Shown piece by piece: positions 371 through 63,952 of a stretch of DNA of 64,000 bases. The DNA is taken from NCBI RefSeq assembly GCF_021026295.1, contig NZ_JAJNDA010000004.1:310001-374000 (forward strand). The letters run 5' to 3'. How positions within the stretch are numbered: the stretch's first letter is position 1; the number at the start of each line of letters is the position of its first letter. The notes below the pieces were generated by a model that was given only the letters and a program-made list of their open reading frames with translations, made no database searches and had not been told where the DNA came from. The DNA comes from Actinomycetospora soli. GTDB lineage: Bacteria; Actinomycetota; Actinomycetes; Mycobacteriales; Pseudonocardiaceae. The position numbers and the translations under genes were made by a program.

Positions 371-400
371 TCCGGGCATTCCCGCCCATTCCCGCCCATT
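371..400. repeat. 10-bp tandem repeat after corA
   Basis: The decamer CCCGCCCATT is repeated at 381-390 and 391-400, and a diverged copy (TCCGGGCATT) precedes it at 371-380. It runs directly into a copy of the dispersed palindrome at 399. No function is apparent. Confidence 0.6.
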
Positions 401-453
401 CCCGACGGCGGGTCGGGCCGTTCGGCCCCGCCGGCGCGACCCGACGTCGGGAA
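399..453 (+). terminator. corA terminator hairpin built from two inverted palindrome copies
   Basis: Bases 399-415 and 437-453 pair over 17 positions with one mismatch (408/444), leaving a 21-nt loop. Each arm is one copy of the dispersed TTCCCGACGnCGGGTC element, so two opposed repeat copies form the hairpin. It sits 33 bp after the corA stop and before the next gene on the same strand. There is no T tract, as is usual at this GC content. Confidence 0.65.
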
Positions 454-540
454 GGCGGTTGGACGCCGGGGAACGGGGGCACACGGGCCGACGTGTAGCT
501 GGGCTCACCAACTGCCCGGCCCGTGACGCGGGAGGTTCTC

Positions 541-2016
541 GTGACGGCCGTCCACCCACCGGGCAGCGTGCGCTCGCTGATCCCCGCCCGGATCGACCGG
601 TTGCCCTGGTCCCCCTTCCACACCCGCATGGTGGTGGCGCTGGGGACGGCGTGGATCCTCGACGGCCTCGAGATCACGATCGCGAGCAACGTCGGCGACA
701 AGCTCACCGACTCCTCGCGGCTCGGCCTCTCGGCGACCGCGGTCGGCGGCCTCGCGACGGCGTACCTGATCGGGCAGGTGGTCGGCGCGCTGGTGTTCGG
801 CCACATCTCCGACCGGCTCGGCCGTCGCCGGCTGTTCATGATCACGCTGGCGATCTACTTCGGGGGCTCGGCGCTCACCGCGTTCACCGTCGGGTCCGGC
901 GGCGCGGCGATCGCGTTCATCTACCTGACGAGGTTCGTCGCGGGCGCCGGGATCGGCGGTGAGTACGCGGCGATCAACTCGGCGATCGACGAGCTCATCC
1001 CGGCGTCCTACCGCGGACGCGTGGACATCGCGGTCAACGGCACCTACTGGGCGGGCGCCGCGATCGCGGCCGTCGTGCAGGTCCCGCTGCTGTCCGGGGC
1101 GCTCTCCCCCGCCGTCGACTGGCGCGTCGCGTTCCTGCTCGGCCCGGTCCTGGGCATCGCGATCCTGTTCCTGCGCCGGCACCTGCCCGAGAGCCCGCGC
1201 TGGCAGATCATGCACGGTCGCGGGGAGGAGGCGGAGCGCTCGATCGCCTACATCGAGCAGGAGGTCGCCGCGACGGGCAGGGAGCTGCCGCCGGTCGACG
1301 AGCGCAGGGCCATCGAGATCACTCCGACCGATCGGACCGGCCACCTCGCCCTGCTCCGGGTGCTGTTCCGGACCTACCCCGGCCGCTCCACGCTCGGCGC
1401 GACGCTGATGATCACGCAGTCGTTCCTCTACAACGCGATCTTCTTCACGTACGCGACGGTGCTCGGGACGTTCTTCGGAGTGCAGGACACGGCGCTCTAC
1501 TACATCCCGTTCGCGATCGGGAACTTCCTCGGGCCGCTGCTGCTCGGACCGTTGTTCGACTCGCTCGGGCGCAAGCCGATGATCTCCGGCACCTACGTCC
1601 TGTCCGGCGGACTGCTGGTGATCTCGGCGTTCCTGTTCCGCGCCGGGATGCTGACCGCCACGACCCAGACGATCGCCTGGTGCGTGATCTTCTTCTTCGC
1701 CTCGGCGGGTGCCTCGGCCGCGTACCTGACGGTCAGCGAGGTGTTCCCGATGGAGGTGCGCGCGAAGGCCATCGCCGTGTTCTTCGCGATCGCGCAGGCG
1801 TTCGGCTCGATCGCGCCGCTGTTCTACGGCTCGCTGATCGACAAGAACGCGCCCGACCCGTCGAAGCTGTTCCTCGGCTACCTCGTCGGCGCGGCCATCA
1901 TGATCGTCGGCGGGCTGGTGACGCTCGCGCTCGGCGTGAAGGCGGAGGGGCAGTCGCTCGAGGACGTCGCGAAGCCGCTCTCGGTGGTCCGCGCGACCGG
2001 GGCGGCGGGCACGTAG
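541..2016 (+). CDS. MFS transporter (sugar/metabolite:H+ symporter type)
   Basis: This is a 491-residue, 12-helix major facilitator permease. Motif A is seen as GHISDRLGRRR at about residue 87, an acidic-plus-arginine RFVAGAGIGGEY segment ends TM4, and PESPRW follows TM6, as in the sugar-porter/metabolite:H+ symporter groups. The GTG at 541 is chosen over the in-frame GTG at 523 because GGGAGG at 529-534 lies 6 nt before it. A cytoplasmic loop of about 60 residues separates the halves, as in the family. The substrate cannot be read from the sequence; an organic acid or sugar acid is plausible. It stands alone between corA and a SRPBCC gene. Confidence 0.88.
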   Translation: MTAVHPPGSVRSLIPARIDRLPWSPFHTRMVVALGTAWILDGLEITIASNVGDKLTDSSRLGLSATAVGGLATAYLIGQVVGALVFGHISDRLGRRRLFMITLAIYFGGSALTAFTVGSGGAAIAFIYLTRFVAGAGIGGEYAAINSAIDELIPASYRGRVDIAVNGTYWAGAAIAAVVQVPLLSGALSPAVDWRVAFLLGPVLGIAILFLRRHLPESPRWQIMHGRGEEAERSIAYIEQEVAATGRELPPVDERRAIEITPTDRTGHLALLRVLFRTYPGRSTLGATLMITQSFLYNAIFFTYATVLGTFFGVQDTALYYIPFAIGNFLGPLLLGPLFDSLGRKPMISGTYVLSGGLLVISAFLFRAGMLTATTQTIAWCVIFFFASAGASAAYLTVSEVFPMEVRAKAIAVFFAIAQAFGSIAPLFYGSLIDKNAPDPSKLFLGYLVGAAIMIVGGLVTLALGVKAEGQSLEDVAKPLSVVRATGAAGT

Positions 2017-2024
2017 GCCCCGCG

Positions 2025-2042
2025 TTCCCGACGGCGGGTCGG
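2025..2042. repeat. Dispersed palindrome copy, plus orientation
   Basis: A TTCCCGACGGCGGGTCGG copy lies 8 bp after the MFS stop codon and 26 bp before the SRPBCC start. It could act as a weak terminator or spacer. Confidence 0.75.
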
Positions 2043-2068
2043 GGCCCGGCCTGGCAGCATCACGGGTC

Positions 2069-2551: not shown

Positions 2552-2571
2552 GTCCGCCGAGCCTCCCCGGG

Positions 2572-3223: not shown

Positions 3224-3239
3224 GACCCGACGTCGGGAA
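3224..3239. repeat. Dispersed palindrome copy, minus orientation
   Basis: A GACCCGACGTCGGGAA copy in the 255-bp gap between the stress-gene start and the acyl-CoA dehydrogenase stop. It abuts the terminator that begins at 3243. Confidence 0.75.
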
Positions 3240-5691: not shown

Positions 5692-7023
5692 GTGACCCGT
5701 GCCGCCAACACCGCGATGACCAGGGTGTTCGTCGCCCGGATGGTCGGTCTGCCCGTTCTCGGCCCCGACGGCGAGCACATCGGTCGCGTGCGCGACGCGG
5801 TGTCGGCCGTCTCGGTCGGTCCGCGACCACCCCGGGTGCTCGGACTCGTCGTCGGGGTCGGGTCCCGACGACGGATCTTCGTCCCGATGCTGCGCATCAC
5901 CGCCATCGACGCCGGCGCGGTGACGCTCTCCACCGGCCAGGTGAACCTGCGCCCGTTCGCGCAGCGGCCGAACGAGGTCCTCGTCGTGGGCGAGATGCTC
6001 GACGCGAGCGTGCGGATCGTCGACCGGCAGGCCGACGCGACCGTGGTCGACGTCCTCATGGAGCACACCCGCAGCCGGGACTGGCTGATCACGCGGCTGG
6101 CGGTCACCGAGCGGCTGGGGGTCCTGGGGCGACGCGGCCCGGTGCAGGTGCTGCCGTGGGCCGCGATCAGCGGCCTGTCGCTGGCCGAGGAGGGCCAGGG
6201 GACCGAGCAGCTGCTCGCGACGTTCGAGGACATGCGCCCCGCCGACGTCGCGCGGGCCCTGCTCGACCTCCCCACCCGCCGTCGCTACGACGTGGCCGAC
6301 GGGCTGGACGACGAGCGCCTCGCCGACGTCATCGAGGAGCTCCCGGGCGACGAGCAGCGCGACGTGCTGCGCCACCTCGCCTCCGAGCGCGCCGCCGACG
6401 TGCTCGAGGCGATGGACCCCGACGACGCCGCGGACCTGCTCGCCGACCTGCCCGACCCGGAGTCCGAGCAGCTCCTGGGCCTGATGGAGCCCGAGGACTC
6501 GCAGTCGGTGCGCCGGCTGCTGACCTACTCCGCCGACACCGCGGGCGGCATGATGACCCCGGAGCCGATCGTGCTGGCCCCGGACGCGACCGTCGCCGAG
6601 GCGCTGGCCCGGGTGCGCAACCCCGACATCACCCCGGCCCTCGCCTCGATGGTGTTCGTCTGCCGGCCGCCCTCGGCCACGCCCACCGGCCGCTACCTCG
6701 GCTGCGTGCACGCCCAGCGCCTGCTGCGCGAGGCACCGTTCGCGCTCGTCGCGGGGGTCCTCGACGCCGAGCTGACCCGGCTCGACCCGGACGCCTCGCT
6801 GACCGAGGTCACCCGCTACTTCGCGACGTACAACCTGGTCTGCGGCCCGGTGATCGACGAGAACGACCACCTGCTCGGCGCGGTCACCGTCGACGACGTG
6901 CTCGACCACCTGCTGCCCGAGGACTGGCGCTCGCAGGACCCCGACCCCACGACGACGGGCGGGCTGCGGATCCCGGACTCCGCCCTGCCGCCCGGCACCG
7001 CCAAGGGAGCCCCCCGTGCCTGA
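5692..7023 (+). CDS. Soluble MgtE N-domain / CBS-pair protein
   Basis: A 443-residue cytoplasmic protein. Residues ~10-150 form a PRC-barrel-like region (VFVARMVGLPVLGPDGEHIG). Residues ~175-285 are the MgtE_N superhelix of acidic repeats (EELPGDEQRDVL, LEAMDPDDAADLLADLP). Residues ~285-420 are two CBS repeats that open with GGMMTPEPIVL. The membrane channel of true MgtE is absent, as in the M. tuberculosis homologue Rv1232c. The acidic superhelix and CBS pair bind Mg2+ or nucleotides in MgtE, so a sensing role beside corA is likely. It overlaps the DUF1003 gene by 8 bp. An ATG at 5716 is an alternative start. Confidence 0.85.
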   Translation: MTRAANTAMTRVFVARMVGLPVLGPDGEHIGRVRDAVSAVSVGPRPPRVLGLVVGVGSRRRIFVPMLRITAIDAGAVTLSTGQVNLRPFAQRPNEVLVVGEMLDASVRIVDRQADATVVDVLMEHTRSRDWLITRLAVTERLGVLGRRGPVQVLPWAAISGLSLAEEGQGTEQLLATFEDMRPADVARALLDLPTRRRYDVADGLDDERLADVIEELPGDEQRDVLRHLASERAADVLEAMDPDDAADLLADLPDPESEQLLGLMEPEDSQSVRRLLTYSADTAGGMMTPEPIVLAPDATVAEALARVRNPDITPALASMVFVCRPPSATPTGRYLGCVHAQRLLREAPFALVAGVLDAELTRLDPDASLTEVTRYFATYNLVCGPVIDENDHLLGAVTVDDVLDHLLPEDWRSQDPDPTTTGGLRIPDSALPPGTAKGAPRA

Positions 7024-8794: not shown

Positions 8795-8802
8795 GCCCGG
8801 CC

Positions 8803-8833
8803 GGACGTCAGCCGTGGCCCACGGCTGACGTCC
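8803..8833. terminator. Terminator between mrp and the toroid lipoprotein gene
   Basis: Bases 8803-8815 and 8821-8833 are perfect complements around a GGCCC loop. The sequence GTGGCCCACGGCTGACG is repeated from 8814 and again from 8844, so half of the hairpin is duplicated. The genes on either side converge, so it can serve both. Confidence 0.8.
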
Positions 8834-11491: not shown

Positions 11492-13321
11492 CTACCAGCC
11501 CTGTCGTCGGGCCAGCAGACAGCGCCACGCGGCCACGACCGCGCAGAACTCGAGGAAGAAGCCGTACAGGTCCTCGACGACCAGCACGGCCACGATCGCG
11601 ACGTCGGTCGCGGTGCGTCCGGGGAGACGCCACATCGAGGTGACCCGCTCCAGCCACATCACGCCGAGCGGGACCAGCCCGATCAGCGCGTACCGGAACG
11701 GGATGGCGTGGGTGATCATCAGGACGATCATCGTCACGAAGAGCACCCGGAAGAACACGCTCAGCACGAAGAGCCCGTACGACAGGATGTCCCGCCGCGT
11801 GGCCGGACCCCAGCCGCGCTTGAGGCACTCGTCCATGCCGCCGCGGCCCCAGCGCAGGCGCTGCACCCACAGCTCGCGGAAGCTCGTCGGCGGGTGGGTG
11901 AGCACGTGGGCGCCGCGGGCGGCGCCGACGGTCCAGCCGGCGGTCTTCAGGTCGAGGGTGAGCGCGTAGTCCTCGATGAGCGACGTGCCGTCCCAGGGAG
12001 CACCGGAGCCCGGCCGTCCCCGCGCCACCTCGTCCAGCGCCTCGCGCCGGTACATCGCGGCCGCACCGCTCGCGACGCTCACCCGCCAGCTCCGCAGCTC
12101 GCGCAGGTCGTCGTAGCGGGCGTACTCGAGCCGCTGCAGGCGCCAGGCGAGCCCGCGGCCGGGGGCGGCCCAGTAGCGGGCGCACACGCCGCCGAGGGTG
12201 GGCCGGGAGCGGAGCTCCTCGGCCATCGCCGCGGCGCAGCCGGGCCGCAGCACGGTGTCGGCGTCCATCGTGAGCACGAGGTCGGCGTCGCCCGCGGCCC
12301 GCCGCCAGCCCTCGTTGAGCGCGCCGGCCTTCTTCTCGGTGTTGCCCTCGGTCTCGATGACCGTCACGGGGTACCGGCGGGCGATCTCGACGGTGCGGTC
12401 GGTGCAGTTGTCCGCCACCACGACGATGCCGGCGATCTCCAGCCACTCCGGCGTCTCCTGCGCCAGCAGGCCCTCGACCGTGTCGGCGATCCCGTCCTCC
12501 TCGTCGTGCGCGGGGACGAGCACCACGAGGCTCGTGACCGCGGTCGAGGCTTCCCGACGACGGGTCCGGCGGCCGGTCGGGCGCTCCGCCGGAGCGGCTG
12601 CAGCGGCCGGGGCGGGCGTGGCGGCGGCCGCGGGCGCGGTGGTCGGGCGGGGCGCGGGCGTCGGCCGGGCGGGGGCCGCGGTCGTCGCCGTGGCCGGCGC
12701 CGGGGTGGCCCGCCGGGCCGGCGCAGGACGGGCGGGCGCGGTCGTCGCCGGGGTGGCGCGCGGGGCCGGCGCGGAACGGGCGGGCGCGGGCGTCGAGGGG
12801 CCGGGGGCGGCCGGTGCGAGAGCCGTCGACGCGGCCGAGGCCGGAGCGGGCGGGGCGGCGTGCGTGGCCGGCGCCGGAGCGGGCGGGGCGGCGTGCGTGG
12901 CCGGCGCCGGAGCGGGCGGGGCGGCGGCGTGCGCGGCCGTCGCGCGGGGCGCCGACGTCGGGGTGGGACGCGGCGTGGGCGTTGGCCGGGCGGCGTGCTT
13001 GGAGCGGCGCGGGCCCGGGGTCGGGCGGGCGCCTCGAGGGGCCACGGTCGGCGTCTCGTCGACGGCCGGGGCGCTGCGGACGGCCGACCCCGCGGTCACG
13101 ACGGGCAGCGGCCCGGACCCCGCCCGGGCGCCGGGGATCCGGTCCGCGAGCTCGGTGGCGCGCAGCTGCGTGGTGGGCGCCTGCTCGTCCTCGAGCTGGG
13201 CCGCGAGGAGCTGGGCGACCGTCACCCGCGGCGAATGGGCCGGACGAGAGCGCCGCATGCCACCGGTCGGAGCATCGAGCACCGTGGTCGCGGTGCGATG
13301 CCCTCCCCCAGCCTGACGCAT
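11492..13321 (-). CDS. Processive family-2 glycosyltransferase with long Pro/Ala linker
   Basis: A 609-residue polysaccharide synthase. Residues ~1-75 include a VTVAQLLAAQLEDEQ segment. Residues ~90-255 are low-complexity Pro/Ala/Thr with Arg. The GT-A domain follows: VPAHDEEDG, DNCTDRT, the DAD of TMDADT, IEDYALTLDL (acceptor base) and QRLRW, the (Q/R)xxRW mark of processive synthases. Three or four membrane helices end the protein. The ATG at 13321 has GGGAG 9 nt upstream and is preferred over an earlier GTG. The neighbours (small membrane protein, deacetylase) suggest an amino-sugar polymer such as PNAG or partly deacetylated chitin-like glycan. Confidence 0.85.
   Translation of the reverse strand: MRQAGGGHRTATTVLDAPTGGMRRSRPAHSPRVTVAQLLAAQLEDEQAPTTQLRATELADRIPGARAGSGPLPVVTAGSAVRSAPAVDETPTVAPRGARPTPGPRRSKHAARPTPTPRPTPTSAPRATAAHAAAPPAPAPATHAAPPAPAPATHAAPPAPASAASTALAPAAPGPSTPAPARSAPAPRATPATTAPARPAPARRATPAPATATTAAPARPTPAPRPTTAPAAAATPAPAAAAAPAERPTGRRTRRREASTAVTSLVVLVPAHDEEDGIADTVEGLLAQETPEWLEIAGIVVVADNCTDRTVEIARRYPVTVIETEGNTEKKAGALNEGWRRAAGDADLVLTMDADTVLRPGCAAAMAEELRSRPTLGGVCARYWAAPGRGLAWRLQRLEYARYDDLRELRSWRVSVASGAAAMYRREALDEVARGRPGSGAPWDGTSLIEDYALTLDLKTAGWTVGAARGAHVLTHPPTSFRELWVQRLRWGRGGMDECLKRGWGPATRRDILSYGLFVLSVFFRVLFVTMIVLMITHAIPFRYALIGLVPLGVMWLERVTSMWRLPGRTATDVAIVAVLVVEDLYGFFLEFCAVVAAWRCLLARRQGW
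12840..12926. repeat. 33-bp tandem repeat inside the GT2 linker
   Basis: GCCGGAGCGGGCGGGGCGGC recurs at 12840, 12873 and 12906, a 33-bp period that encodes the APPAPAPATHA unit. The surrounding ~450 bp are also repetitive. Such tracts change length by slippage without breaking the frame. Confidence 0.75.
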
Positions 13322-13677
13322 GGTGTCTCCCGACCGACTCGTCACCCCATCGGCATCGCCCGATCGATGCCGACATGTCCCATATAGTCACAGACGGTCC
13401 GAGTGTTACACCGGAATCACGGTTTGGCCACGGATGTACCGGTCGTCACGATCCAGAGGTGCACACCGGCTCAGCGGGAGCGGCCGAGCGGGCGACGCCG
13501 GGTCTCCCCCGGACGGCCGAGCACGTCCCACGAGCCCCGCGCGACCCACCCGAGGTGCACACCGGGCAGCCCGGCGGGCGCCCGGAACCCGCCCCCCGTC
13601 GTCCTCGGGGCGGGCCGGGCGACGGGCCGGGAGACGGCCCTGCGGCCGAGCCGGCCCCGACCCGCCGTCGGGACGGC
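13322..13677. other. 356-bp intergenic region upstream of the GT2 operon
   Basis: No gene is seen. It holds an AT-richer patch at about 13375-13440 with a candidate GT2 promoter, a direct repeat GAGGTGCACACCGG at 13456-13469 and 13552-13565 (96 bp apart), and a dispersed palindrome copy at 13659-13673 beside the dioxygenase stop codon. Confidence 0.6.
13381..13409 (-). promoter_or_regulatory. Candidate promoter of the polysaccharide operon
   Basis: On the minus strand GTAACA (13409-13404) and TATATG (13386-13381) are separated by 17 nt, a sigma-70-like arrangement, about 60 bp before the GT2 start codon. It is the most AT-rich stretch nearby. Confidence 0.45.
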
Positions 13678-17371: not shown

Positions 17372-18046
17372 TCAGGACGACGGGCGCGCCCGGGTGGCGT
17401 CCGGGCCGTGCGTGACGTCGGTGGGTGCGGCCGGCGTGGTGGAGGTCGGCGTGGCGGCGCGGGCGACGGCGTCCTGCACGACCGCGCCCGCGACGGGGTT
17501 GCCGCGCTCCCCCACGGCGGGCGGTGCCGCGGTGAGCGACGCACCGGCGCTCGGGGCGCGGCCGGGCAGAGGAGCGGCCGGCACCGCGCCCGCGGCGAGC
17601 ACGGGCCCGACCACGGCGGCCGCCCCGGCCACGAGACCGGACGCGACGACGGCCGGGAGGACCCGTCGTCGGGAACGGGGACCGCCGCCACCGCGGCGGC
17701 CGCGGCGCGCGGGCGGGTCCTCCGCCGGCACCACGAAGCGGCCCTCGGCGTCCACGCCGAGCCCGGCGGGCGCCTCGGGCAGCTCCGCGCTGTCGGGGAT
17801 GTTGCGCAGCGAGGTCAGGAGCGCCGACGGCGCTCCGGGACAGTCGGCGGCGCGCAGGCGGCGCCGCGCCTGCCGCTGCGCGGCGACCTCGCCCGCGCAC
17901 GTGAGGCAGTGGTCGACGTGGGCCGCGGCCCGGCCGGCGGCGGCCTCGCCGAGCTCACCGTCGACGAAGGCGACCATCGCGTCGAGGGTCAGGTGGCCCG
18001 AGTCCGACCAACGCGACCAGGGCGTCCCCGGGGCGCGGCCGATCAC
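17372..18046 (-). CDS. rseA: Anti-sigma-E factor with zinc-binding ZAS motif
   Basis: A 224-residue single-pass regulator. The N-terminal anti-sigma domain has the HxxxCxxC zinc motif (HVDHCLTC, about residue 42). A basic stretch and one membrane helix (about 122-148) follow, then a Pro/Ala/Thr-rich extracytoplasmic tail. Its GTG start overlaps the sigE stop (GTGA), so the two are co-translated. In mycobacteria RseA holds SigE until it is phosphorylated and degraded. Part of the basic stretch is encoded by a dispersed palindrome copy (17660-17675). Confidence 0.9.
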
Positions 18047-18816: not shown

Positions 18817-19857
18817 GTGAGCGAGGACGGGGGTCGCGAGGGGACACGACGCGTGCGCGCGCTCCGGGTCGTCGGTCCCGATCCCGCCACCCCGCCGCCC
18901 CCCGCCGCTCCGCCGACGACCCCGCCGGTCGCCCCACCACCCGTCCGGACGCCGCCGCGGCCGCACGATGACGCCGGTCGGCGCAGCCCCCACCGTCCGG
19001 GGCGCGGAACCGCCCGGATCCCGGTCTACCCGCGCGTCCCGACCGGGCCGCTGCGCCTGCCCAGCACCTCGTTCGCGGGGCGGCCCCGCCCGGGCGATGA
19101 GGAGCCGACCACCACGCCGCAGACCCTCCCCCGGCTCGTCCCGGCCGATCTTCCCGACGTCGGGTCGGAGCCGGTCGAGCCGGTCGGTCCCCTCCCGGTG
19201 GAGGACGTCGACCTCGACGAGGGCGCCGGCGAGCGGGAACGGCTGCGGGCGCGCGCCGAGCACTTCACCGCCGAGGACGACGTCCTCACGACGGCCCGGG
19301 AGCGGGCGGCCGAGCACGGCATCGTCCCGATCGGGGCCGGCGCCGCGGCCGCCCTGACCTTCCTCGCGTCCGCCGGTCGGGCCCGCGCGGTCGTCGAGAT
19401 CGGCACGGGCGCCGGGATCGGCACCGTCAGCCTGCTCCGGGGGATGCCGCGGGAGGGGCTGCTGACCAGCATCGACACCGAGGCCACGCACCAGCGGCTG
19501 ACCCGCATCACGTGCGCGGAGGCCGGCTTCGGCTCGGGCCGGGTCCGCATGATCACCGGGCGGGCGCTCGAGGTGCTGCCCCGGCTCTCCGACTCCGCGT
19601 ACGACCTCGTGCTCGTCGACGCGGCCACCGTCGAGTACCCGCGCTACCTCGCCGAGGCGGTCCGGCTGCTGCGCCCGGGCGGCGTCGTCGTCCTCGACAA
19701 CGTCTGCTGGACGGGCCGCGTCACCGATCCCGCCCGCCGCGACGCGATCTCGGCGGCGCTGCGCGAGACGGTGCGGATGGTGCGGACCGACGAGCGCCTC
19801 GCCCCGCTGCTACTGCCCGTGTCCGACGGCCTGCTCTGCGCCTCGCTGCTGGGCTGA
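18817..19857 (+). CDS. SAM-dependent O-methyltransferase with Pro-rich N-terminal extension
   Basis: A 346-residue protein. The first ~125 residues are Pro/Arg-rich and probably disordered. The rest is a class I (catechol-type) O-methyltransferase: AVVEIGTGAGIGTVSLL is the SAM loop (motif I), then LTSIDTEATHQRL, YDLVLVDA and VVLDNVCWTGRV, which match the metal-dependent O-methyltransferase family. It corresponds to Rv1220c, divergent from sigE. Usual family length is about 215 residues, so the extension is the unusual part; the palindrome copy at 19151 encodes part of it (PDVGSEP). The substrate is unknown. Confidence 0.87.
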   Translation: MSEDGGREGTRRVRALRVVGPDPATPPPPAAPPTTPPVAPPPVRTPPRPHDDAGRRSPHRPGRGTARIPVYPRVPTGPLRLPSTSFAGRPRPGDEEPTTTPQTLPRLVPADLPDVGSEPVEPVGPLPVEDVDLDEGAGERERLRARAEHFTAEDDVLTTARERAAEHGIVPIGAGAAAALTFLASAGRARAVVEIGTGAGIGTVSLLRGMPREGLLTSIDTEATHQRLTRITCAEAGFGSGRVRMITGRALEVLPRLSDSAYDLVLVDAATVEYPRYLAEAVRLLRPGGVVVLDNVCWTGRVTDPARRDAISAALRETVRMVRTDERLAPLLLPVSDGLLCASLLG

Positions 19858-19876: not shown

Positions 19877-21358
19877 TCAGGTGGCCCGGCGGGCGCAGAA
19901 CTCGACGAGCGTGCGCGCCGCGAAGCCGGTCGCGCCCTTGGCGACCTCCTCGTGCGGCGCGTCGCAGCGGGCGGGGCCGGCGATGTCGAGGTGCGCCCAC
20001 GGCACGTCGCCCACGAAGCGACGGAGGAACAGCGCGGCGACGATGCCGCCGGGGCCGGGTGGCGCCTGGCGCACGTCGGCGAGCTGCGAGTCGACGTCGG
20101 GGTCGTGGCCGGCCGCGAGGGGCACCCGCCACCACGCCTCGCCGGTCGCGGCGCCCGCCTCGGCGAGCGCCGCCGCGAGGTCGTCGGTCGTCGCGAAGAG
20201 GCCGCCGGTGCGCACACCGAGCGCGACCTTCATCGCGCCGGTCAGGGTCGCGACGTCCACGACGACGTCCGGGGCGAGCGTCGCGACCGCGTAGCCGAGC
20301 GCGTCGGCCAGCACCATGCGGCCCTCGGCGTCGGTGTTGGTGACCTCGGTGGTGCGTCCGTCGTAGTGCCGCACCACGTCCCCGGGCCGGTAGGCGGAGC
20401 CGGACACGTGGTTCTCCGCGAGCGGCACCAGGCCGGTGACCCGCACCGGCAGGTCGAGCGCGGCGACCGCGGCGAGCGCCCCGACGACGGCCGCGCCGCC
20501 CGAGCAGTCGGTGCGCATGTCGGCCATGCCCGCGTTCGGCTTGATCGAGATGCCGCCGGTGTCGAAGGTGATGCCCTTGCCGACCAGCACGACGTGCCGG
20601 GTCGCGGACGCCGGGGCCCACGTGAGCTCGAGGAACCGCGGCGGGCGGGACGAGCCGCCGCCGACGGCGAGGACGCCGCCGAACCCCTGCTCGGCGAGCC
20701 ACTGCTCGTCGCGCACCACGGCACCGACGCCGTCGGCCGCGGCGAGGGCGGCGAGCGCCTGCTCGGCGAACCACGCGGGGGACTTCGCCCCCGACGGGCT
20801 GTCGGCGAGGTCGCGGGCGATGGCCGTGGCGCCGGCGAGCACCAGGGCCCGCTCCACGGCGGGTCGCTCGTCGGACGGGATCTCCACCGTCACGACCGGA
20901 GCCGCGGCGGGCTGCGCCGAGCGCACCGAGAACCGGTGGGAGCCCAGCAGCAGGCCGGTGGCCAGCGCCGACCAGTCGGGGGACACCCCGTCGTCGGGAA
21001 CGACGTGCAGCCGCGCCGGCCCCTCGTCCCCGGCGCCGAAGAGCACGCCGGGCTCGGAGCGACCGCTCGCCACCCGCACCGCGGCGGCACCCGCACCGCG
21101 CCAGTCCTTCGCGCCGCCCGCGCCGGCACCGACGAGCCACCGGCCTGCGCCCTCGTCTGGCACGAGCGCGGCGACGGCACCGGCGGACGGCACCCAGCCG
21201 CTCGGGGCGTCCGCCGGGGCGCCGGCGTCGTCGCCGGTCCGGCACAGACGCACCAGCGCCGCCCCGGACGGTCCCGCCCCGGGATCGACGAGACGGATCT
21301 CCGCGAGCGGGGTGGGCAGCGTCGGGGCGGCGAAGGGCGCCGTCAGCGGGGCACTCAC
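19877..21358 (-). CDS. pepA: Leucyl aminopeptidase, M17 family
   Basis: A 493-residue cytosolic metallo-aminopeptidase. The C-terminal catalytic domain has GKGITFDTGGISIKP (metal Lys/Asp), DMRTDCSGGAAV, and the signature NTDAEGRMVLADAL with Asp/Glu ligands and the catalytic Arg. The N domain is less conserved. It removes N-terminal amino acids from peptides and helps turn over glutathione- or mycothiol-derived dipeptides. The start is 4 bp after the DUF3117 stop, so the two form an operon. A dispersed palindrome copy (20986-21000) encodes the VVPDDG segment of the N domain. Confidence 0.9.
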   Translation of the reverse strand: MSAPLTAPFAAPTLPTPLAEIRLVDPGAGPSGAALVRLCRTGDDAGAPADAPSGWVPSAGAVAALVPDEGAGRWLVGAGAGGAKDWRGAGAAAVRVASGRSEPGVLFGAGDEGPARLHVVPDDGVSPDWSALATGLLLGSHRFSVRSAQPAAAPVVTVEIPSDERPAVERALVLAGATAIARDLADSPSGAKSPAWFAEQALAALAAADGVGAVVRDEQWLAEQGFGGVLAVGGGSSRPPRFLELTWAPASATRHVVLVGKGITFDTGGISIKPNAGMADMRTDCSGGAAVVGALAAVAALDLPVRVTGLVPLAENHVSGSAYRPGDVVRHYDGRTTEVTNTDAEGRMVLADALGYAVATLAPDVVVDVATLTGAMKVALGVRTGGLFATTDDLAAALAEAGAATGEAWWRVPLAAGHDPDVDSQLADVRQAPPGPGGIVAALFLRRFVGDVPWAHLDIAGPARCDAPHEEVAKGATGFAARTLVEFCARRAT

Positions 21359-25489: not shown

Positions 25490-25493
25490 CCAT

Positions 25494-25508
25494 CCCCGTC
25501 GTCGGGAA
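25494..25508. repeat. Dispersed palindrome copy in the wrbA leader
   Basis: CCCCGTCGTCGGGAA in the minus orientation, ending 12 bp before the wrbA GTG. The ribosome site AAGGA directly follows, so pairing of this copy could affect access to it. Confidence 0.7.
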
Positions 25509-28279: not shown

Positions 28280-28295
28280 TTCCGACGACGGGTCC
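28280..28295. repeat. Dispersed palindrome copy after dapD
   Basis: TTCCGACGACGGGTCC, plus orientation, one C short of the usual CCC, starts on the base after the dapD stop codon. Confidence 0.7.
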
Positions 28296-44481: not shown

Positions 44482-45696
44482 CTGCGCTCCGCCCCGTTCC
44501 TCGCCGTCCTCGTCGCGACCTTCGCGGCGTTCGGCGGCTTCGCGCTGCTGCTGCCGGTCCTGCCGCTGTGGGCGGCGGCCGGCGGCGCCGGGCCGGGCCT
44601 CGCCGGGTCGGTCACGGGCGTGTTCATGGCCGCGACCGTGCTCTCCCAGCTCGGGGTGCCCGCCCTGCTGCGCGCGGTCGGGCACCGGGCGTCGCTCGCG
44701 CTGGGCGCCCTCGCCCTCGGGCTGCCCGCGGCGGTGCTGCCGCTGAGCCCGTCGCCGGGGCTGCTCGTCCCGGTCGCGATCGCCCGCGGGATCGGGTTCG
44801 GCATCCTCACCGTCACCGGCGCGGCCCTCGTCTCCGACCTCGTCGAACCCCGCGTGCGCGGGCGCGCCACCGGGATCTACGGCATCGCCGTCGGCCTCCC
44901 CCAGCTCGCGCTGCTCACCGGCGGCGTGTGGGCGTGGTCCCGCCTCGGGCCCACGCCCGTGCTGCTCGCGGGCGCGGCGCTGCCGCTGCTCGCCCTGCCC
45001 GCGATGCTGCTGCTCCCCCGGCGGGTCTCCCCCGTTCCCGACGCCGGGTCGGAGCCGGTCCGTGGGGGCACGACCGGATCGTCCGACGCGCACGACCGGG
45101 ACGGACGACCCGCGCGCCCCGCGCGGACGGTGCCGTGGCGCCAGGTCGTCGGTCCCTGGCTGGTCATGCTGGTGTGCGCGGCCAGCGCCGGCGGGGTGAT
45201 CACCGTGCTCCCGCTGATCGGCGCGGGCACGACCGGGGCGGCCGAGTTCTCCCTGTTCGCCCTCACCCTGTTCCAGCTCGTGGGCCGGGGCGCGGCCGGC
45301 GAGCTCGGTGACCGGCTGCGCCTCGCCGGGCGCATCACCCGCCCCGCGCTCCTGCTCACCGCGATCGGGGCGGCCGTGGCGGCGGCGGGCCTGCTCGTCG
45401 GCAGCACCCCCGTCGTCGTGCTGGGGGCGGGGATCGTCGGGCTGGGGTTCGGGGCCGTGCAGAACGACACACTGGTGACGCTGTTCGACCGGGCGGGCCC
45501 CGGGCGCTCCGGGACGGCCAGCAGCGTGTGGAACACGGCGTACGACGCGGGCACCGGGGTGGGCGCCACCGCCCTCTCGGTCGTGCTGGGCGCGGCGGGC
45601 GCGCCATGGTCGTTCGCGGTCGCGGCCGGTGCGTGCCTGCTCGTCCTCGGCGCAACCTGGACACGCGCCGCGACCACCGCTCGGACGGTCGGGTGA
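44482..45696 (+). CDS. MFS transporter without a canonical start codon
   Basis: A permease of about 404 residues. TM1 (APFLAVLVATFAAFGGFALL) is encoded from about 44491, but the first ATG, GTG or TTG in frame is the GTG at 44620, which would delete TM1. The frame is open back into the PCD gene, whose TAA is at 44475-44477. A CTG at 44482 is used here; ACG at 44470 is another option, with re-initiation after the PCD stop. The central loop is long and encodes a palindrome copy (VPDAGSEPV). Motif GRATGIYGIAVGLPQL and VQNDTLVTLF support a drug-efflux-type MFS. Confidence 0.75.
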   Translation: MRSAPFLAVLVATFAAFGGFALLLPVLPLWAAAGGAGPGLAGSVTGVFMAATVLSQLGVPALLRAVGHRASLALGALALGLPAAVLPLSPSPGLLVPVAIARGIGFGILTVTGAALVSDLVEPRVRGRATGIYGIAVGLPQLALLTGGVWAWSRLGPTPVLLAGAALPLLALPAMLLLPRRVSPVPDAGSEPVRGGTTGSSDAHDRDGRPARPARTVPWRQVVGPWLVMLVCAASAGGVITVLPLIGAGTTGAAEFSLFALTLFQLVGRGAAGELGDRLRLAGRITRPALLLTAIGAAVAAAGLLVGSTPVVVLGAGIVGLGFGAVQNDTLVTLFDRAGPGRSGTASSVWNTAYDAGTGVGATALSVVLGAAGAPWSFAVAAGACLLVLGATWTRAATTARTVG

Positions 45697-45757: not shown

Positions 45758-46222
45758 GTGCGCCGGATCCTGCTCGCCGTGGCGGCGGGCGCCCTCGCGA
45801 TGATGGTCGTGGCCCAGCTGGCCACGGTGCTCACCCGGGTCGCGGAGGACGCGGACGCGTCGACCGTCTCGACGCCGGCCCCGGCCGCGCCGGACGGCGT
45901 CGGCGCGCCGACCGTGCCGCTGGCCCCACTGGCCGTGGTCGGCACGGTGCCGCCGCCGACGCCCGGACCGTCGGCCGTCCCCGCCGCGTCCGCACCGGCG
46001 ACGCCGGCACCGACCCGGGCGCCCGAGGGCGCTCCCGCCGCCCGCGCCCCCGAGCCCGCCGACCCGTCGTCGGGAACGCCACCGGCCCCCGCGAGCCCGG
46101 CCCCGGCGGTACGGAGCGCGGCACCGGCGGCCCCGGCCGCACCCGCGGCCACCCGCGCCCCCGGGCCCGCGCTGGAGGTGTGCCTGAAGGTCGTCGCCGG
46201 GGTGTGCGTGCAGCTCGGCTGA
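45758..46222 (+). CDS. Exported or membrane-anchored Pro/Ala-rich protein
   Basis: A 154-residue product: an N-terminal helix (ILLAVAAGALAMMVVAQLATVL) that may be a signal anchor, a Pro/Ala/Thr-rich stretch of about 110 residues, and a short conserved-looking end with two cysteines (LEVCLKVVAGVCVQLG). The gene body contains a dispersed palindrome copy (46061-46076; PSSGTP). The start is the GTG at 45758 after GGGGG. No family recognised. Its stop lies 2 bp from a convergent gene. Confidence 0.55.
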   Translation: MRRILLAVAAGALAMMVVAQLATVLTRVAEDADASTVSTPAPAAPDGVGAPTVPLAPLAVVGTVPPPTPGPSAVPAASAPATPAPTRAPEGAPAARAPEPADPSSGTPPAPASPAPAVRSAAPAAPAAPAATRAPGPALEVCLKVVAGVCVQLG

Positions 46223-47815: not shown

Positions 47816-48700
47816 TCAGAGCCCGAGGGCCCGGACGGCCGCCGTGGTCGCCGCCGGGACGGCCGGCACGGCCCGGTCGGACCGCGGGTCGGCGGGCTCG
47901 GTGTAGACGGCGAGGAGGACCGGCGGCCGGCCGGGCGGCTCGGACGGCCACGTGATCGCCACGTCGTTCACCTCCCCGCCGTCGCCGCTGCCGGTCTTGT
48001 CCCCGGTCCGCCACCCGGCCGGGAGCCCGGCCCGGATGCGCTGTCCGCCCGTGGTGGTGGCGACGAGCCAGTCGAGGAGCTGCGCCCGCCCGGCCTCGTC
48101 GAGCCCGGCGCCGAGCGTGCAGGCCTGCAGCGTCGCCACCATCTGCCGCGGGGTGGAGGTGTCGAGCGTGCCCTGGCGGGCGTTGAGCTCCGGCTCGTAG
48201 CGGTCGAGGCTCGTCACCGCGTCGCCGGTCGAGCGCAGGTACCCCTGGACGGCCTTCGGCCCGCCGAGGCGGCGGAGCAGGAGGTTCTCGGCGGTGTTGT
48301 CGGAGACGGTGATCGCCGCGGCGCACAGCTCCCCGACCGTCAGCGACGTCGACCGGGAGGTGGTCGGCGAGTTCCGCACCAGGTCGGCCGGCGAGTACCG
48401 CACCACCTCGTCGAGCGGCACCCGCGCCGCCAGGATCGCCGCGGCGGTCGGCATCTTCGACGTGGAGCAGAGCAGGAAGCGCTCGTCGGCCCGGTGACCC
48501 GCCGTCCGGCCGGTCGCGAGGTCGACGGCGAACACCCCGAGCCGGCCGCCCATCGCGGCCTCGACCGGTCCGAACGGGTTCCCGACGGCGGGGGTGGTCG
48601 TCGGGGCGGTCGGGCCCGGTGCCGGGGCGGCGCAGCCGCCGGCGAGGACGGCGACGCCCGCGGCGCCGAGGGCGAGGACCCGTCGTCGGGAAGTGGTCAT
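47816..48700 (-). CDS. Class A beta-lactamase, exported lipoprotein
   Basis: A 294-residue serine beta-lactamase. The signal has a twin-arginine-like SRRRVLALG followed by a lipobox (VLAGGC). All catalytic motifs are present: STSK (Ser70/Lys73, with a Cys just before), VSDN (Ser130 loop), RYEPELN (Glu166 and Asn170) and KTG. It hydrolyses beta-lactams at the outer face of the membrane. It is divergent from a LysR regulator, as in the AmpR/ampC arrangement. Two dispersed palindrome copies lie in its first ~120 bp: one encodes the twin-arginine region (48677-48692), one the linker (48579-48593). Confidence 0.9.
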   Translation of the reverse strand: MTTSRRRVLALGAAGVAVLAGGCAAPAPGPTAPTTTPAVGNPFGPVEAAMGGRLGVFAVDLATGRTAGHRADERFLLCSTSKMPTAAAILAARVPLDEVVRYSPADLVRNSPTTSRSTSLTVGELCAAAITVSDNTAENLLLRRLGGPKAVQGYLRSTGDAVTSLDRYEPELNARQGTLDTSTPRQMVATLQACTLGAGLDEAGRAQLLDWLVATTTGGQRIRAGLPAGWRTGDKTGSGDGGEVNDVAITWPSEPPGRPPVLLAVYTEPADPRSDRAVPAVPAATTAAVRALGL

Positions 48701-49655: not shown

Positions 49656-50548
49656 GCCTCGTGGCGGAGGCGACCGTCGGGATCCGCGCCGTCCTGGCCG
49701 ACGCCGGCGTGCGCGGCGCGGTGCACGCGCGCGTGGTCGGGGCGGACGGGCCGGAGCTGGGGGTCCGCGCCGACGAACCGGTGACGATGGCATCGGTCTT
49801 CAAGCTCCCGGTGCTGGTGGCGCTCGTGCGCGCGTTCGACGCCGGGGACCTCGACCCGCGGGCGTCGGTGACGGTCGACCCGTCGTCGCGCACGGACGGA
49901 CCCACCGGGCTGTCGGTGCTCGCCGACCCCGTGACGATGTCGCTGCGCGACCTCGCCACGTCGATGACCACGGTGTCCGACAACGCCGCCGCGGACGTCC
50001 TGCTCGACGTGCTCGGGCTGCCGCGGGTCCACGCCGCGCTCGCCGACCTCGGAATCCGCCGCACGCGGGTCGAGCGCGCGGACGCGACGTTCGCCGCCCT
50101 CGCCGCCGAGCTCGGGGTCACCGACGCCGCCGCGGCCACGGCCCGGCTGGCGGACCCGGACGACCCGCCGCCGCCCTCGGCGTACGACCCGGTCCTCGGC
50201 AGTGCCACGACCCCCCGCGACATGACGACGCTGCTCTCGCTGCTGTGGCGCGACGAGGCCGCGTCGCCGTCGTCGTGCGCGTTCGCCCGACGGCTGCTGG
50301 GACTGCAGGTCTCCCGCGCACGGCTGGCCTCCGGGTTCCCGTTCGACGAGGTCCGGTGCTCCGGGAAGACCGGGACGCTGGGCGCTCTGCGCAACGAGGT
50401 CGGCGTGGTCGAGTTCCCCGGCGAGGCGCCGGTGGCGGTCGCGGTGTTCACGCTGGCCGCGCGTCCGGAGCGGGTGCTCCCCGGGGTGGACGCGGCGATC
50501 GGGGAGGTCGCGCGGCTGGCGGTCACGGCCCTCCGTCTGGGTGACTGA
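49652..50548 (+). CDS. Beta-lactamase-like serine hydrolase without signal peptide
   Basis: A 298-residue protein of the class A fold with SVFK (Ser-x-x-Lys), VSDN and SGKTG. Two features differ from the enzyme at 47816. There is no signal peptide, so it is probably cytoplasmic. The omega-loop Glu-x-x-x-Asn motif is not recognisable: the region reads PPPPSAYDPVLGSATTP. Without Glu166 a class A enzyme acylates but deacylates poorly, so a binding or sensing role, or another amidase activity, is possible. GTG overlaps the LysR stop. Confidence 0.78.
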   Translation: MSLVAEATVGIRAVLADAGVRGAVHARVVGADGPELGVRADEPVTMASVFKLPVLVALVRAFDAGDLDPRASVTVDPSSRTDGPTGLSVLADPVTMSLRDLATSMTTVSDNAAADVLLDVLGLPRVHAALADLGIRRTRVERADATFAALAAELGVTDAAAATARLADPDDPPPPSAYDPVLGSATTPRDMTTLLSLLWRDEAASPSSCAFARRLLGLQVSRARLASGFPFDEVRCSGKTGTLGALRNEVGVVEFPGEAPVAVAVFTLAARPERVLPGVDAAIGEVARLAVTALRLGD

Positions 50549-51417: not shown

Positions 51418-52952
<1,535 letters not shown>

Positions 52953-58115: not shown

Positions 58116-58131
58116 CACCCGCCGTCGGGAA
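58116..58131. repeat. Dispersed palindrome copy, minus orientation
   Basis: CACCCGCCGTCGGGAA, 14 bp upstream of the DinB-like start codon, within the divergent promoter region. Confidence 0.7.
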
Positions 58132-61283: not shown

Positions 61284-62222
61284 TCAGGCGGTCACGGGGC
61301 TGAGGTGGCGGTCGATCTCGCCCACCACGAAGTCCATGCCGACCGCTGCTCCCGGCAGCACGCCGACCATGGTGAAGAAGCCGTGCATCTGGCCCGGGAC
61401 GAGCAGCCGCGTCACCTCGACCCCGGCCGCGGCGAGCCGGTCGGCGTACGCCACGCCCTCGTCGAGCAGCGGGTCGTGCGGGGCGTGCAGGACCACCGCG
61501 GGCGGGAGCCCCGCGAGGTCGGACGCCTGCAGCGGCGAGGCGTCGGGATCGGCCCGCACGGCGGCGTCCGGGGTGTAGTGGTCCCAGAACCAGACCATGC
61601 TGTCCCGGTTGACCAGCAGCTGGTTCGCCGGGTCGACGTACGACGGCCGGTCGACGTCCGCGTCGGTGACGGGGTAGACGAGCACCTGCGCCGCCAGCGC
61701 CGGGCCCCCCGCGTCGCGGGCGCGTCGCGCGACGACCGCCGACAGGTTGCCGCCCGCGGAGTCGCCGGCGACCACCAGCGGCACCCGCGACCCGGCGAGC
61801 TCGACGAGGTGCGCGTCCACCCACTGCAGTGCGGCCCAGGCGTCCTCGACCGCGGTCGGGTAGCGGTGCTCCGGCGCGAGCCGGTAGTCGACGAGCACCA
61901 CGACGCAGCCCGTGCGGTTCGCCAGGAGCCGGCACAGGTGGTCGAACTCGTCGAGCGCGCCGATCACCCACCCACCGCCGTGGTGGTAGACGACGACGCC
62001 GCGCGGCGTGCCCTCCGGCGTCAGCACCCGCAGCGGCACCGGGGCATCGGCGGGCTCGTCGACGCGGGCCACCGCCGGGCCGGGCCCGTACATCTCGGCG
62101 AGCGCCGGGCCCAGCCCGCGGGCCTGCTCGGGGGTCATCTCCTGGATCGGCGGCATGCCGCTCGCGGCGAGCTGCGCCACCAGGTCCGAGGTCGCGTCGT
62201 CGAGGGCCACCGGCCGCACCAC
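61284..62222 (-). CDS. HSL-type alpha/beta hydrolase (esterase/lactonase)
   Basis: A 312-residue carboxylesterase of the hormone-sensitive lipase group: HGGGWVIG (oxyanion hole), GDSAGGNL (nucleophile Ser), the Asp in HAPHDPLLDEG and His in GQMHGFF. It could hydrolyse the lactone made by the BVMO downstream. GTG 62222 is used; a start at 62282 would place the TetR-like operator inside the gene. A dispersed palindrome copy (62221-62234) overlaps the start. Confidence 0.85.
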   Translation of the reverse strand: MVRPVALDDATSDLVAQLAASGMPPIQEMTPEQARGLGPALAEMYGPGPAVARVDEPADAPVPLRVLTPEGTPRGVVVYHHGGGWVIGALDEFDHLCRLLANRTGCVVVLVDYRLAPEHRYPTAVEDAWAALQWVDAHLVELAGSRVPLVVAGDSAGGNLSAVVARRARDAGGPALAAQVLVYPVTDADVDRPSYVDPANQLLVNRDSMVWFWDHYTPDAAVRADPDASPLQASDLAGLPPAVVLHAPHDPLLDEGVAYADRLAAAGVEVTRLLVPGQMHGFFTMVGVLPGAAVGMDFVVGEIDRHLSPVTA

Positions 62223-62239
62223 CCGTCGTCGGGATCGAG

Positions 62240-62255
62240 TACCAAACGATCGGTA
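62240..62255. promoter_or_regulatory. TetR-like operator before the esterase/BVMO unit
   Basis: TACCAAACGATCGGTA has TACC/GGTA arms and the ACCAAACG-type half common in TetR sites of lipid catabolic genes. It is 17 bp before the esterase start. No regulator gene is in the window. Confidence 0.5.
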
Positions 62256-62294
62256 GGCTAGCGGGCGCGTGGTCCTGATCACAACGGCGAGCGG

Positions 62295-63125
62295 CTACTT
62301 CTGGGTGGCGCCCGCGTCCACCGGCAGCGCGACCCCGGTGACGAACCGGGACTCCTCGGAGGCCAGCCAGAGCACGGCCTCGCTGACGTCGGACGCCTCC
62401 ACCCACGGCACCGGCAGGGCGTTGATCGACGCGAAGACCGGCTCGGCCTGCTCCGACGTGGGGTGCTCCGCGCCGGGCACCATCAGGCGGTAGGTCGCCT
62501 CGTTGCGGATCATCGCGGTGTTCACGCCGGTCGGGTGCACGGAGTTCACCCGGATCCGGTGCGGGGCCATCTCGTTCGCGAGCACCCGGACCACGCCCAC
62601 CACGCCGTGCTTCGACGCCGAGTAGGCGACGGTGTTGGGCACGCCCTTCAGGCCCGCCGTCGAGCTGGTCACGATCACCGACCCGCCCCGGCCGCCCTCG
62701 ACCATCGGCCGCAGCGCCGCCCGGACGGTGCGGAACACGCCGGTCAGGTTGATCGCCAGCGTCTCCTCCCACAGGGCGTCGTCGGTCTCCAGCGCGGGCG
62801 CCGTCGCGAAGATGCCGGCGTTCGCGCACACCACGTCGATGCCGCCGAACGCGGCGACCGCGTCGTCGACGACCTTCGCGAGCCCGCCGGTGTCCCGGAC
62901 GTCGACCACGTGGGCCAGCGCTCGCCGGCCGAGGCCGCGGACCTCCTCGGCGGTGCGCTCGAGCTCGTCCGAGGACGGCATGTCGATCGGCGCGGACGGG
63001 ATCGGGGCGCACGCGTCGAGCAGGACCACGTCCGCCCCCTCGGCCGCGAGCCGCAACGCGTGCGACCGCCCCTGTCCCCGCGCCGCTCCGCTGATCAGGG
63101 CGACCTTGCCCTCGACACGTCCCAT
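62295..63125 (-). CDS. Mycofactocin-coupled short-chain dehydrogenase
   Basis: A 276-residue SDR: MGRVEGKVALISGAARGQGR (cofactor loop), then LDACAPIPSAPIDMPSSDEL, the extra segment after strand 2 that marks mycofactocin-linked SDRs. NAG in CANAGIFA, catalytic Ser in TSSTAGLKGV and YSASKHG (Tyr and Lys) are intact. Such enzymes keep NAD tightly bound and pass electrons to mycofactocin. Next to a BVMO and an esterase it probably oxidises an alcohol to the ketone. GGAGGGAG is 4 nt before the ATG. Confidence 0.87.
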   Translation of the reverse strand: MGRVEGKVALISGAARGQGRSHALRLAAEGADVVLLDACAPIPSAPIDMPSSDELERTAEEVRGLGRRALAHVVDVRDTGGLAKVVDDAVAAFGGIDVVCANAGIFATAPALETDDALWEETLAINLTGVFRTVRAALRPMVEGGRGGSVIVTSSTAGLKGVPNTVAYSASKHGVVGVVRVLANEMAPHRIRVNSVHPTGVNTAMIRNEATYRLMVPGAEHPTSEQAEPVFASINALPVPWVEASDVSEAVLWLASEESRFVTGVALPVDAGATQK

Positions 63126-63952
63126 GTCGCTCCCTCCGGGTCCGGGCCGCCGGACGCGGCCGCGAGTTCGGCGTGCCCGCTCACCGCGGGCCGGTCGTCG
63201 GCACCGAGCAGGGCGAAGCCCCCGTCCGGAGCGAGCACCGGGCGCACCACGTCCCCGGCGAGCACCGTGGCGTGGAACCGCGCCTCGAACGCCACGAGGC
63301 GCTCGGCGGGCCGCGACCGCACGAGGTGGGTGAGCGCGTACGCGAGGTTGGCGGGGCCCTGGTTCACGCAGGCGCGCCCGAACCCGAGGGCCGCCGCCGC
63401 GTCGGCGTCGAGATGGATCGGGTTGGGGTCGCGCAGCAGCAGCGCGAGCAGCTTCATCTCCTCGGCCCGGACGGTGACCGGCTCGCCCGCCGCGCCCCCG
63501 ATGCCTTCCCGACGACGGGTCGGGGCGGGTCCGGCGGGACGGTCGCCCGGGCGCGGGAGGAGGAACGCGTACGTCGCGGTGACCACGGGGCCCGCACCGC
63601 GAAGTTCCAGCACGAGCGTGACCTCGTCGAACGGCCCCAGCACCCGGCTCGCCCGCCGGACCACCGACGTGACCCCACCGGTGACCGTGTGGTCGACGCC
63701 GAGCCGGAGCGGGGCGTGCGACCGGGCGCCGAAGGAGCCGAGGACCGGGCCGGCGTCGAGCGGCGTCCCGAACGCCTCGAACAGCGCGGCGAGGGACAGA
63801 CCCATGCCCCGCTGCGGGGCGAGGAAGGCCCAGATCGGGTGCGGGGCGGCCGCGCGGGGCGCGCGCACGGCGTCGTGCAGCAGCAGGTTCTCGTAGGGCT
63901 CGACCCGGCTGGTCCCGCCGGGGACCCGCCACCCGACGAGGTCGCCGCTCAC
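63095..63952 (-). CDS. MaoC-like double hot-dog dehydratase
   Basis: A 285-residue protein with two hot-dog halves. The second half has LLLRDPNPIHLDADAAAALG and NQGPANLAYALTHL, the MaoC hydratase motif (Asp and His). The first half (YENLLLHDAVRAPRA) lacks it. It may hydrate or dehydrate an enoyl-CoA or act as a thioester-binding protein. Its stop lies 31 bp inside the SDR gene. The GTG start overlaps the stop of the gene that enters from the right edge. A palindrome copy at 63506 is in the linker. Confidence 0.78.
   Translation of the reverse strand: MSGDLVGWRVPGGTSRVEPYENLLLHDAVRAPRAAAPHPIWAFLAPQRGMGLSLAALFEAFGTPLDAGPVLGSFGARSHAPLRLGVDHTVTGGVTSVVRRASRVLGPFDEVTLVLELRGAGPVVTATYAFLLPRPGDRPAGPAPTRRREGIGGAAGEPVTVRAEEMKLLALLLRDPNPIHLDADAAAALGFGRACVNQGPANLAYALTHLVRSRPAERLVAFEARFHATVLAGDVVRPVLAPDGGFALLGADDRPAVSGHAELAAASGGPDPEGATWDVSRARSP

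Follow-up and report, generated by a model that had tools for sequence, protein, structure and literature searches.

A short, oriented word of DNA is strongly over-represented on both strands of the genome of the actinobacterium Actinomycetospora soli (6.52 Mb in 69 contigs), where it came to attention in a window of 64,000 nucleotides, positions 310,001 to 374,000 of contig NZ_JAJNDA010000004.1. This word has a 14-base core, TCCCGACGNCGGGT, which is often lengthened to the 16-mer TTCCCGACGNCGGGTC, wherein 15 positions are fixed and one is a free base. We give about an even chance to the reading that it is a self-recognition DNA uptake signal of one Actinomycetospora clade, used for natural transformation via ComEA/ComEC and a Flp/Tad pilus. 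The wider claim, that DNA uptake signals have here originated once more and independently, for the first time in Actinobacteria and with a Flp/Tad pilus as the reader, and that this one is caught while arising (absent from ten species, weak in three and full in five), is a little less probable than that. The uptake signal ranks first because it jointly explains the restriction of the word to one lineage, its gain against protein conservation, its settling in convergent gaps and hairpins, the lack of strand polarity and the presence of the machinery.

Under this hypothesis, the word would be bound by a DNA receptor on the cell surface, most likely a minor pilin, so that DNA from the same clade is taken up preferentially. 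The imported DNA would recombine, and copies of the word created by mutation would thereby become more frequent wherever they stood, including places where they change amino acids at a cost. The word would settle most easily behind genes, where two opposed copies could double as terminator-like hairpins. We thereby infer that a protein reads the word, that this protein is an uptake receptor and that transformation drives the spread. The best-known uptake sequences come from two families of proteobacteria, and the origin of such self-recognition words is an open question; a single genus with word-free, weak and full species would make the start and growth of such a word directly traceable. If the reading is true, it predicts natural transformation in a genus for which we found no report of it, and offers a tool for transforming these strains. 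If it is not, a word of 14 to 16 bases strong enough to alter proteins would be an equally unexplained force on genomes.

The excess of the word is large. The window holds 29 sites with up to two mismatches, against a mean of 1.52 and a maximum of 7 in 100 dinucleotide shuffles, and the whole genome contains the exact 16-mer 336 times (165 on the plus and 171 on the minus strand), while the same pattern read backwards never occurs. The core alone is present in 885 copies, or one per 7.4 kb, again with no reversed copy, and the reversed core pattern occurs 0 or 1 times per genome across 18 genomes of the genus. The original prediction had put the density in the window at one copy per 2.8 kb, a figure that holds if two-mismatch sites are included, but not for the 14-base core. 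The sampled 464 kb of the A. soli genome contain 37 exact sites, 43 with one mismatch and 82 with two, compared with 0, 2 and 12 in an order-3 Markov sequence and 0, 1 and 14 in an order-5 one (one sequence each); at three mismatches the excess is small, with 153 sites against 119 and 139, respectively.

The boundaries of the word are sharp and its flanks are not conserved, with weak preferences only for C at position -2, G at +16 and C at +20. Among 121 one-mismatch sites, 42 differ at the first base and 39 at the last (81 at the two outermost bases together), 14 at position 14 (counted from 0) and none at eight inner positions, which indicates a strict core close to TCCCGACGNCGGGT. The word is an oriented near-palindrome and not an exact one: of 193 sites, 153 carry A or G as the free base and just 16 the T that would make the inner palindrome complete. 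The directionality previously ascribed to it is therefore real.

With regard to its distribution, a search for the 16-mer in 100 genomes gave matches in 14, nine of them among the 18 of the genus (one with a single copy) and five among the 82 outside it, with one copy each. The 14-base core occurs 885, 885, 777, 764 and 712 times in five rich species of the genus, 134, 116 and 63 times in three intermediate species (the last in a genome that is 59% complete) and 0 to 5 times in the remaining ten. In a tree built from 12 genes in 11 of the 18 genomes, the rich (5), intermediate (2) and word-free (4) species are each monophyletic with support of 100/100, and a one-gene tree of 17 genomes separates carriers from word-free species at 100/100; the 59% complete genome, G014, is in neither tree. 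Within the genes of the two intermediate genomes, the inner core CCCGACGNCGGG exceeds a codon shuffle (20 against 3.5 and 14 against 2.0), whereas in the word-free G017 it is hardly raised (6 against 3.5). The simplest history is a single rise along this lineage, weak and then full, although the word may instead have decayed in the intermediate pair. An order-3 Markov k-mer screen for another dialect in 460 kb of G017 yielded mainly one apparent tandem array, although a sparse dialect could escape such a screen, which did not extend to the other nine word-free species.

The position of the copies relative to genes was taken from our own codon-usage gene caller and not from annotation; its starts are approximate, so that some sites close to gene starts are counted as intergenic. 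It should also be borne in mind that the ortholog alignments, and the sequence blocks used for the gene, gap and pair counts, are not independent, as they include orthologous stretches of several species. As originally proposed, copies lie both within and between genes, with 138 of 229 sites genic in 1.3 Mb of sequence. In 904 kb of rich genomes, called genes contain 105 of 164 sites, against 5.7 after shuffling of synonymous codons (18-fold), a comparison that had been named beforehand as able to refute the word and that does not refute it. These genic sites use all six classes of phase and strand (5 to 34 sites each), and the commonest peptides encoded at sites are PDDG, SRRRV and DPSSG. Even so, the density per base is 4.3 times higher between genes than within them in the same 904 kb. 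By type of gap, in the 1.3 Mb, the density per kb is highest between convergent genes (1.71, 31 sites), followed by codirectional (0.53, 44 sites) and divergent gaps (0.36, 16 sites). A transcription-factor regulon, one sense of the genome-wide binding site suggested at the outset, is disfavoured by this ranking, where the promoter-bearing divergent gaps come last and the convergent ones first. Both strands are used in every block examined, which led us to reject strand polarity of the kind known for Chi or KOPS (FtsK-orienting polar sequences); no local polarity was seen in the two largest blocks either (29 against 18 and 45 against 39 sites; p 0.14 and 0.59), the ori-ter axis itself lying outside this test.

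Close pairs of copies are another feature of this word. At gaps of at most 30 nt there are six inverted pairs with their TT ends outward and four with them inward, for expectations of 1.0 each (10 against 2.0 altogether), and five direct pairs for an expected 2.0. The free bases match in eight of the ten inverted pairs. Over whole genomes, TT-outward pairs number 21 in G003 and 17 in G015, and their free bases are compatible with a stem in 17 of 21 and 16 of 17 cases, where chance would give about a third. Eight of the ten close inverted pairs are intergenic, centred 21 to 59 bp past a stop codon, three of them midway between two convergent stops, and the other two lie in genes; of two wider inverted pairs, with gaps of 47 and 52 nt, one is in a divergent gap and one in a gene. 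Three folded pairs reached -35 to -41 kcal/mol (z -6.5 to -8.8), and the fold of a lone copy is weak (-5.2 kcal/mol, z -1.0), being matched by 29 of 200 shuffles. Closely spaced inverted DNA uptake sequences (DUS) function as terminators in Neisseria, according to passages of PMC2397512, and the hairpins of the Actinomycetospora word may likewise terminate transcription.

Comparison of species points to gain followed by conservation. In the rich clade, aligned exact copies keep their 15 fixed positions at 85% between genes (33 alignments) and 91% within them (61 alignments), with 55% and 61%, respectively, for the free base and 72-83% for the flanks. A direct comparison of A. soli with G003 over 364 kb gave 87% (19 intergenic sites) and 93% (33 genic sites) for the fixed positions, and 58% and 70% for the free base. 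That the 15 positions are held better than the free base points to something reading the word. Seven composition-matched control words gave 34 aligned sites in all, too few for a firm yardstick, and their genic retention (0.83-0.94) is as high as that of the motif, whose intergenic sites are without a usable control. Towards the outgroups, identity falls to 63% in the word against 70-76% in its flanks (49 genic alignments), with 80% in the word for only five intergenic alignments; the nine genic alignments with G017 show 70% in the word, 75-77% in the flanks and 89% at the free base. At the protein level, amino-acid identity at motif codons is 0.53 in comparisons with intermediate species (59 alignments) and 0.55 with word-free ones (63 alignments), against 0.68 at neighbouring codons; within the rich clade (125 alignments) it is 0.80 against 0.77. 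These alignments show that the word arose where relatives mostly lack it, and that it did so at a cost in amino acids. Conservation of the same residues in all relatives, which had been put forward as an argument against a genuine element, is mostly not found, although some sites, such as that at 35574, are conserved. In the outgroup alignments, smaller gaps are found at the word in 46 of 118 cases, a higher share than at a distance of 60 bp (45 of 255), so not all gains were plain substitutions, and some sites fall in stretches that align poorly.

The genes that such an uptake would require are present in the genus. ComEC was found in 16 of the 18 genomes and not in two incomplete ones (59% and 83%); TadA, too, is in 16, among them G016, where it is in two pieces. 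In G003, ComEA (SLBB and helix-hairpin-helix domains) lies directly before ComEC, and the tad locus encodes Ssd, TadA, T2SSF (TadB-like), a further small membrane protein, a DUF4244 pilin and two TadE-like minor pilins; G010 has an open frame at the place of the second minor pilin. The Pfam search for TadE, with 0 of 18 genomes, is a false negative, the minor pilins having been recognised by reading of the locus and through NCBIfam. The word-free G017 has its tad locus in the same order, with pilins about 50% identical to those of G003, and a new specificity could hence reside in the pilin, needing no new gene. A separate observation concerns G016 (A. endophytica), where tadA is split, with about 57 kb between its two parts on contig C9 (about 1814802-1872983). 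The first of these continues into a large serine recombinase (domains Resolvase and Recombinase), and it thus seems that an integrative element lies within this presumed competence-pilus gene.

Among known systems, the Pasteurellaceae uptake signal sequence (USS) has 9-10 bases flanked by AT tracts, unlike the present word with its weak single-base preferences outside. The DUS of Neisseriaceae differs in being shorter (10-12 bases) and non-palindromic, whereas the Actinomycetospora word has 13-15 fixed bases, is near-palindromic, is known from sequence alone and belongs to an actinobacterium with a Flp/Tad pilus. DUS nonetheless share much with the present word: they number hundreds of copies or more on both strands, both genic and intergenic, their forms differ between lineages around a conserved core, individual copies are conserved, and close inverted pairs act as terminators in Neisseria (PMC2397512, PMC3630211, PMC2346458). 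The 885 cores in 6.5 Mb compare with almost 1,500 DUS copies per Neisseria genome as given in PMC2346458, and with up to 5,918 in 2.4 Mb as given in PMC3630211. A dispersed word with apparently random placement and inverted intergenic forms is likewise described for USS in part of PMC2346458. The closest precedent for the machinery is the Flp-pilus-dependent transformation of Micrococcus luteus, with ComEA, ComEC and tad locus genes present in Actinomycetospora too; the tad genes are required for transformation of M. luteus, as an excerpt of PMC4322843 states, while term searches of PMC4322843 and PMC8467076 returned no uptake word for that species.

Several observations weigh against an uptake signal. 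As a near-palindrome with 13-15 fixed bases, the word is longer and more symmetric than DUS or USS and would suit a dimeric DNA-binding protein. Among open-access papers, closed-access ones not being covered, our searches showed no report of natural transformation in Actinomycetospora or Pseudonocardia, none of an uptake-type word in any actinobacterium and none of the repeat itself. No receptor for the word was found, the TadE-like minor pilins being candidates only, and the machinery genes occur in word-free species as well and so do not explain the distribution of the word. Depletion in accessory DNA, as in Neisseria, is here only weak and non-significant (5 copies where 6.4 were expected, p 0.68, and 6 where 10.5 were, p 0.18), the spacing of copies is random (coefficient of variation 1.05), and in codirectional gaps the 28 of 44 sites that lie nearer the upstream stop do not reach significance (p 0.10). 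Lastly, the one-gene tree sets the intermediate pair beside G007, inside the rich group (84/83).

A different reader of the same word could be a chromosome-organising or segregation protein with the logic of Noc, SlmA or MatP, a dimer that on hundreds of sites shapes the nucleoid or times division. We regard this as unlikely, even though a near-palindrome of 14-16 bp with sharp ends is what a helix-turn-helix dimer would bind, sites gained and then conserved would be expected, and the symmetry of the word is better explained than by an uptake signal. Known chromosome-organising systems have tens to about 100 sites. The asymmetry of the word, with A or G preferred over T as the free base and T at both core ends, is unlike selection by a symmetric dimer, the spacing is near-random, and most copies sit in called genes at an amino-acid cost. 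The original prediction had left the choice between an uptake and a segregation signal; the former is the best fit, and the latter, in the sense of chromosome organisation, lacks support from local polarity.

Still less probable is an iterated palindrome similar to the cyanobacterial HIP1, kept by DNA methyltransferase-coupled repair or mutation bias and with no selected function. The word does resemble HIP1 and its alternates as a high-copy, GC-rich, palindrome-like sequence, intragenic and intergenic, and restricted to a lineage. However, a target of 13-15 bases is beyond known type II methyltransferases, and the hairpin pairs and the enrichment in convergent gaps would require a separate cause. 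C5 methyltransferases (PF00145) were not found in the rich A. soli, G001 and G007 genomes, which weakens such a process (N4 and N6 enzymes were not searched); overall, PF00145 occurs in two of five rich and four of 13 other genomes of the genus, and these enzymes thus do not track the word. According to PMC4390886, HIP1 variants differ mainly at their ends, as the one-mismatch sites do here, and some cyanobacteria have other GC-rich palindromes in its place; HIP1 is also presented there as an exact 8-base palindrome tied to methyltransferases, unlike this longer and asymmetric word.

There is very little to favour a recognition site for conjugative or chromosome-mobilising transfer by an FtsK/TraB-like translocase, in place of transformation. 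The reverse complement of the word begins with GACCCG, like the Streptomyces TraB recognition repeat, and such repeats have dispersed chromosomal copies, but the remainder of the word differs from that repeat and no polarity was seen. Exact copies in viral contigs, one in each of 30 stretches, form no array; we took them as chance and rejected a phage as the carrier (plasmids were not searched).

That the word is merely a family of transcription terminators is scarcely credible: the three folded pairs are strong and most close pairs lie just past stop codons, but most copies are single, in genes and in both orientations, and a lone copy folds poorly. Weakest of all is a mobile element inserting copies, whether REP/RAYT-like (repetitive extragenic palindrome and its associated transposase) or other, an option of the original prediction that we reject despite the high copy number and inverted pairs, given that Y1_Tnp is found in 0 of 18 genomes of the genus, that most sites are genic, that no flank is conserved and the free base varies among orthologous copies, and that the word is missing as a block (at least 12 of the 16 bases) from one of 118 outgroup alignments and one of 166 within the rich clade; clean insertions of a block with a duplicated target were looked for and not seen.

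The sites in the window, at up to two mismatches, are as follows.

399..414, plus strand: exact, intergenic; forms an inverted pair with 438-453, of which it is the first arm
438..453, minus strand: exact, intergenic; second arm of the 399/438 pair, whose centre is about 59 bp past the called stop of the upstream gene; free bases mismatched
2025..2040, plus strand: exact; 8 bases past the called stop codon of gene 568-2016
3224..3239, minus strand: exact; between called genes
5862..5877, plus strand: two-mismatch relative; intergenic by the gene caller, but probably inside an MgtE/PRC-type gene, as the longer frame 5692-7023 has a PRC match that spans the site
12551..12566, plus strand: exact; between called genes
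13659..13674, minus strand: one mismatch; 3 bases past the stop of gene 13678-14556 (minus)
17660..17675, minus strand: exact; in gene 17372-18046 (minus); 16-mer identical in G015 and G003, with surroundings 81-82% identical
19151..19166, plus strand: exact; divergent gap between called genes
20985..21000, minus strand: two mismatches; in a peptidase M17 gene
23266..23281, minus strand: two mismatches; in a glycosyltransferase gene; newly listed
25493..25508, minus strand: two mismatches; between called genes
28279..28294, plus strand: two mismatches; begins on the final base of gene 27299-28279
30265..30280, minus strand: exact; in an aminotransferase gene; VPDDGS here, with VADDEP, VGDDEP or VGDGEP in relatives outside the clade
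32369..32384, plus strand: exact; in called gene 32056-32649; free base C, G, T, T and C across five species, other 15 bases constant
33377..33392, minus strand: two mismatches; 3' end of a PIG-L family gene
35574..35589, plus strand: one mismatch; ABC transporter ATPase gene, antisense; peptide the same in five of six relatives outside the clade
38711..38726, minus strand: one mismatch; in a transport permease gene
45035..45050, plus strand: exact; in an MFS transporter gene
46061..46076, minus strand: exact; in called gene 45758-46222
48579..48594, plus strand: two mismatches; in a beta-lactamase-family gene
48677..48692, minus strand: exact; 5' end of the beta-lactamase-family gene that also holds the 48579 site
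49877..49892, minus strand: two mismatches; in a second beta-lactamase-family gene; newly listed
51797..51812, minus strand: two mismatches; in a gene with two ABC ATPase domains; newly listed
51962..51977, plus strand: two mismatches; in the same two-ABC-ATPase-domain gene as 51797
52215..52230, plus strand: two mismatches; also in that gene
58116..58131, minus strand: one mismatch; between called genes
62220..62235, minus strand: two mismatches; overlaps the called start of gene 61284-62222 (minus)
63506..63521, plus strand: exact; in a MaoC-like dehydratase gene, antisense

All 23 copies first listed as clear are present, 13 of them exact, four with one mismatch and six with two, and most of their positions were right, with the starts given as 28280, 20986, 25494 and 62221 off by one (28279, 20985, 25493 and 62220). 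Of three weaker relatives, 51962 stands, and 5873 and 52213 correspond to 5862 and 52215; the two-mismatch sites at 23266, 49877 and 51797 are additional.

Some other features were noticed as well. The two genes of the beta-lactamase enzyme family (PF13354), at 47816-48700 and 49652-50548, are near each other on opposite strands. A tRNA-Leu (cag) at 8750-8828 (minus strand) overlaps the 3' end of a Mrp-like frame, 7661-8794, by 45 bases. Further repeated words were also noticed: in the 464 kb of A. soli, there is an excess of runs of at least 10 G (15, with 0.8 expected) and of AGGAAAGCGT (9, with 0.03 expected); in the 460 kb of G017, a repeated unit containing GGACTCGGGCTC has 17 copies against 0.16 expected, perhaps in one tandem array; and 260 kb of G016 contain GTGAGCACTAAT and TTACTGCTCACG, 8 times each against about 0 expected, both unrelated to the word described here.

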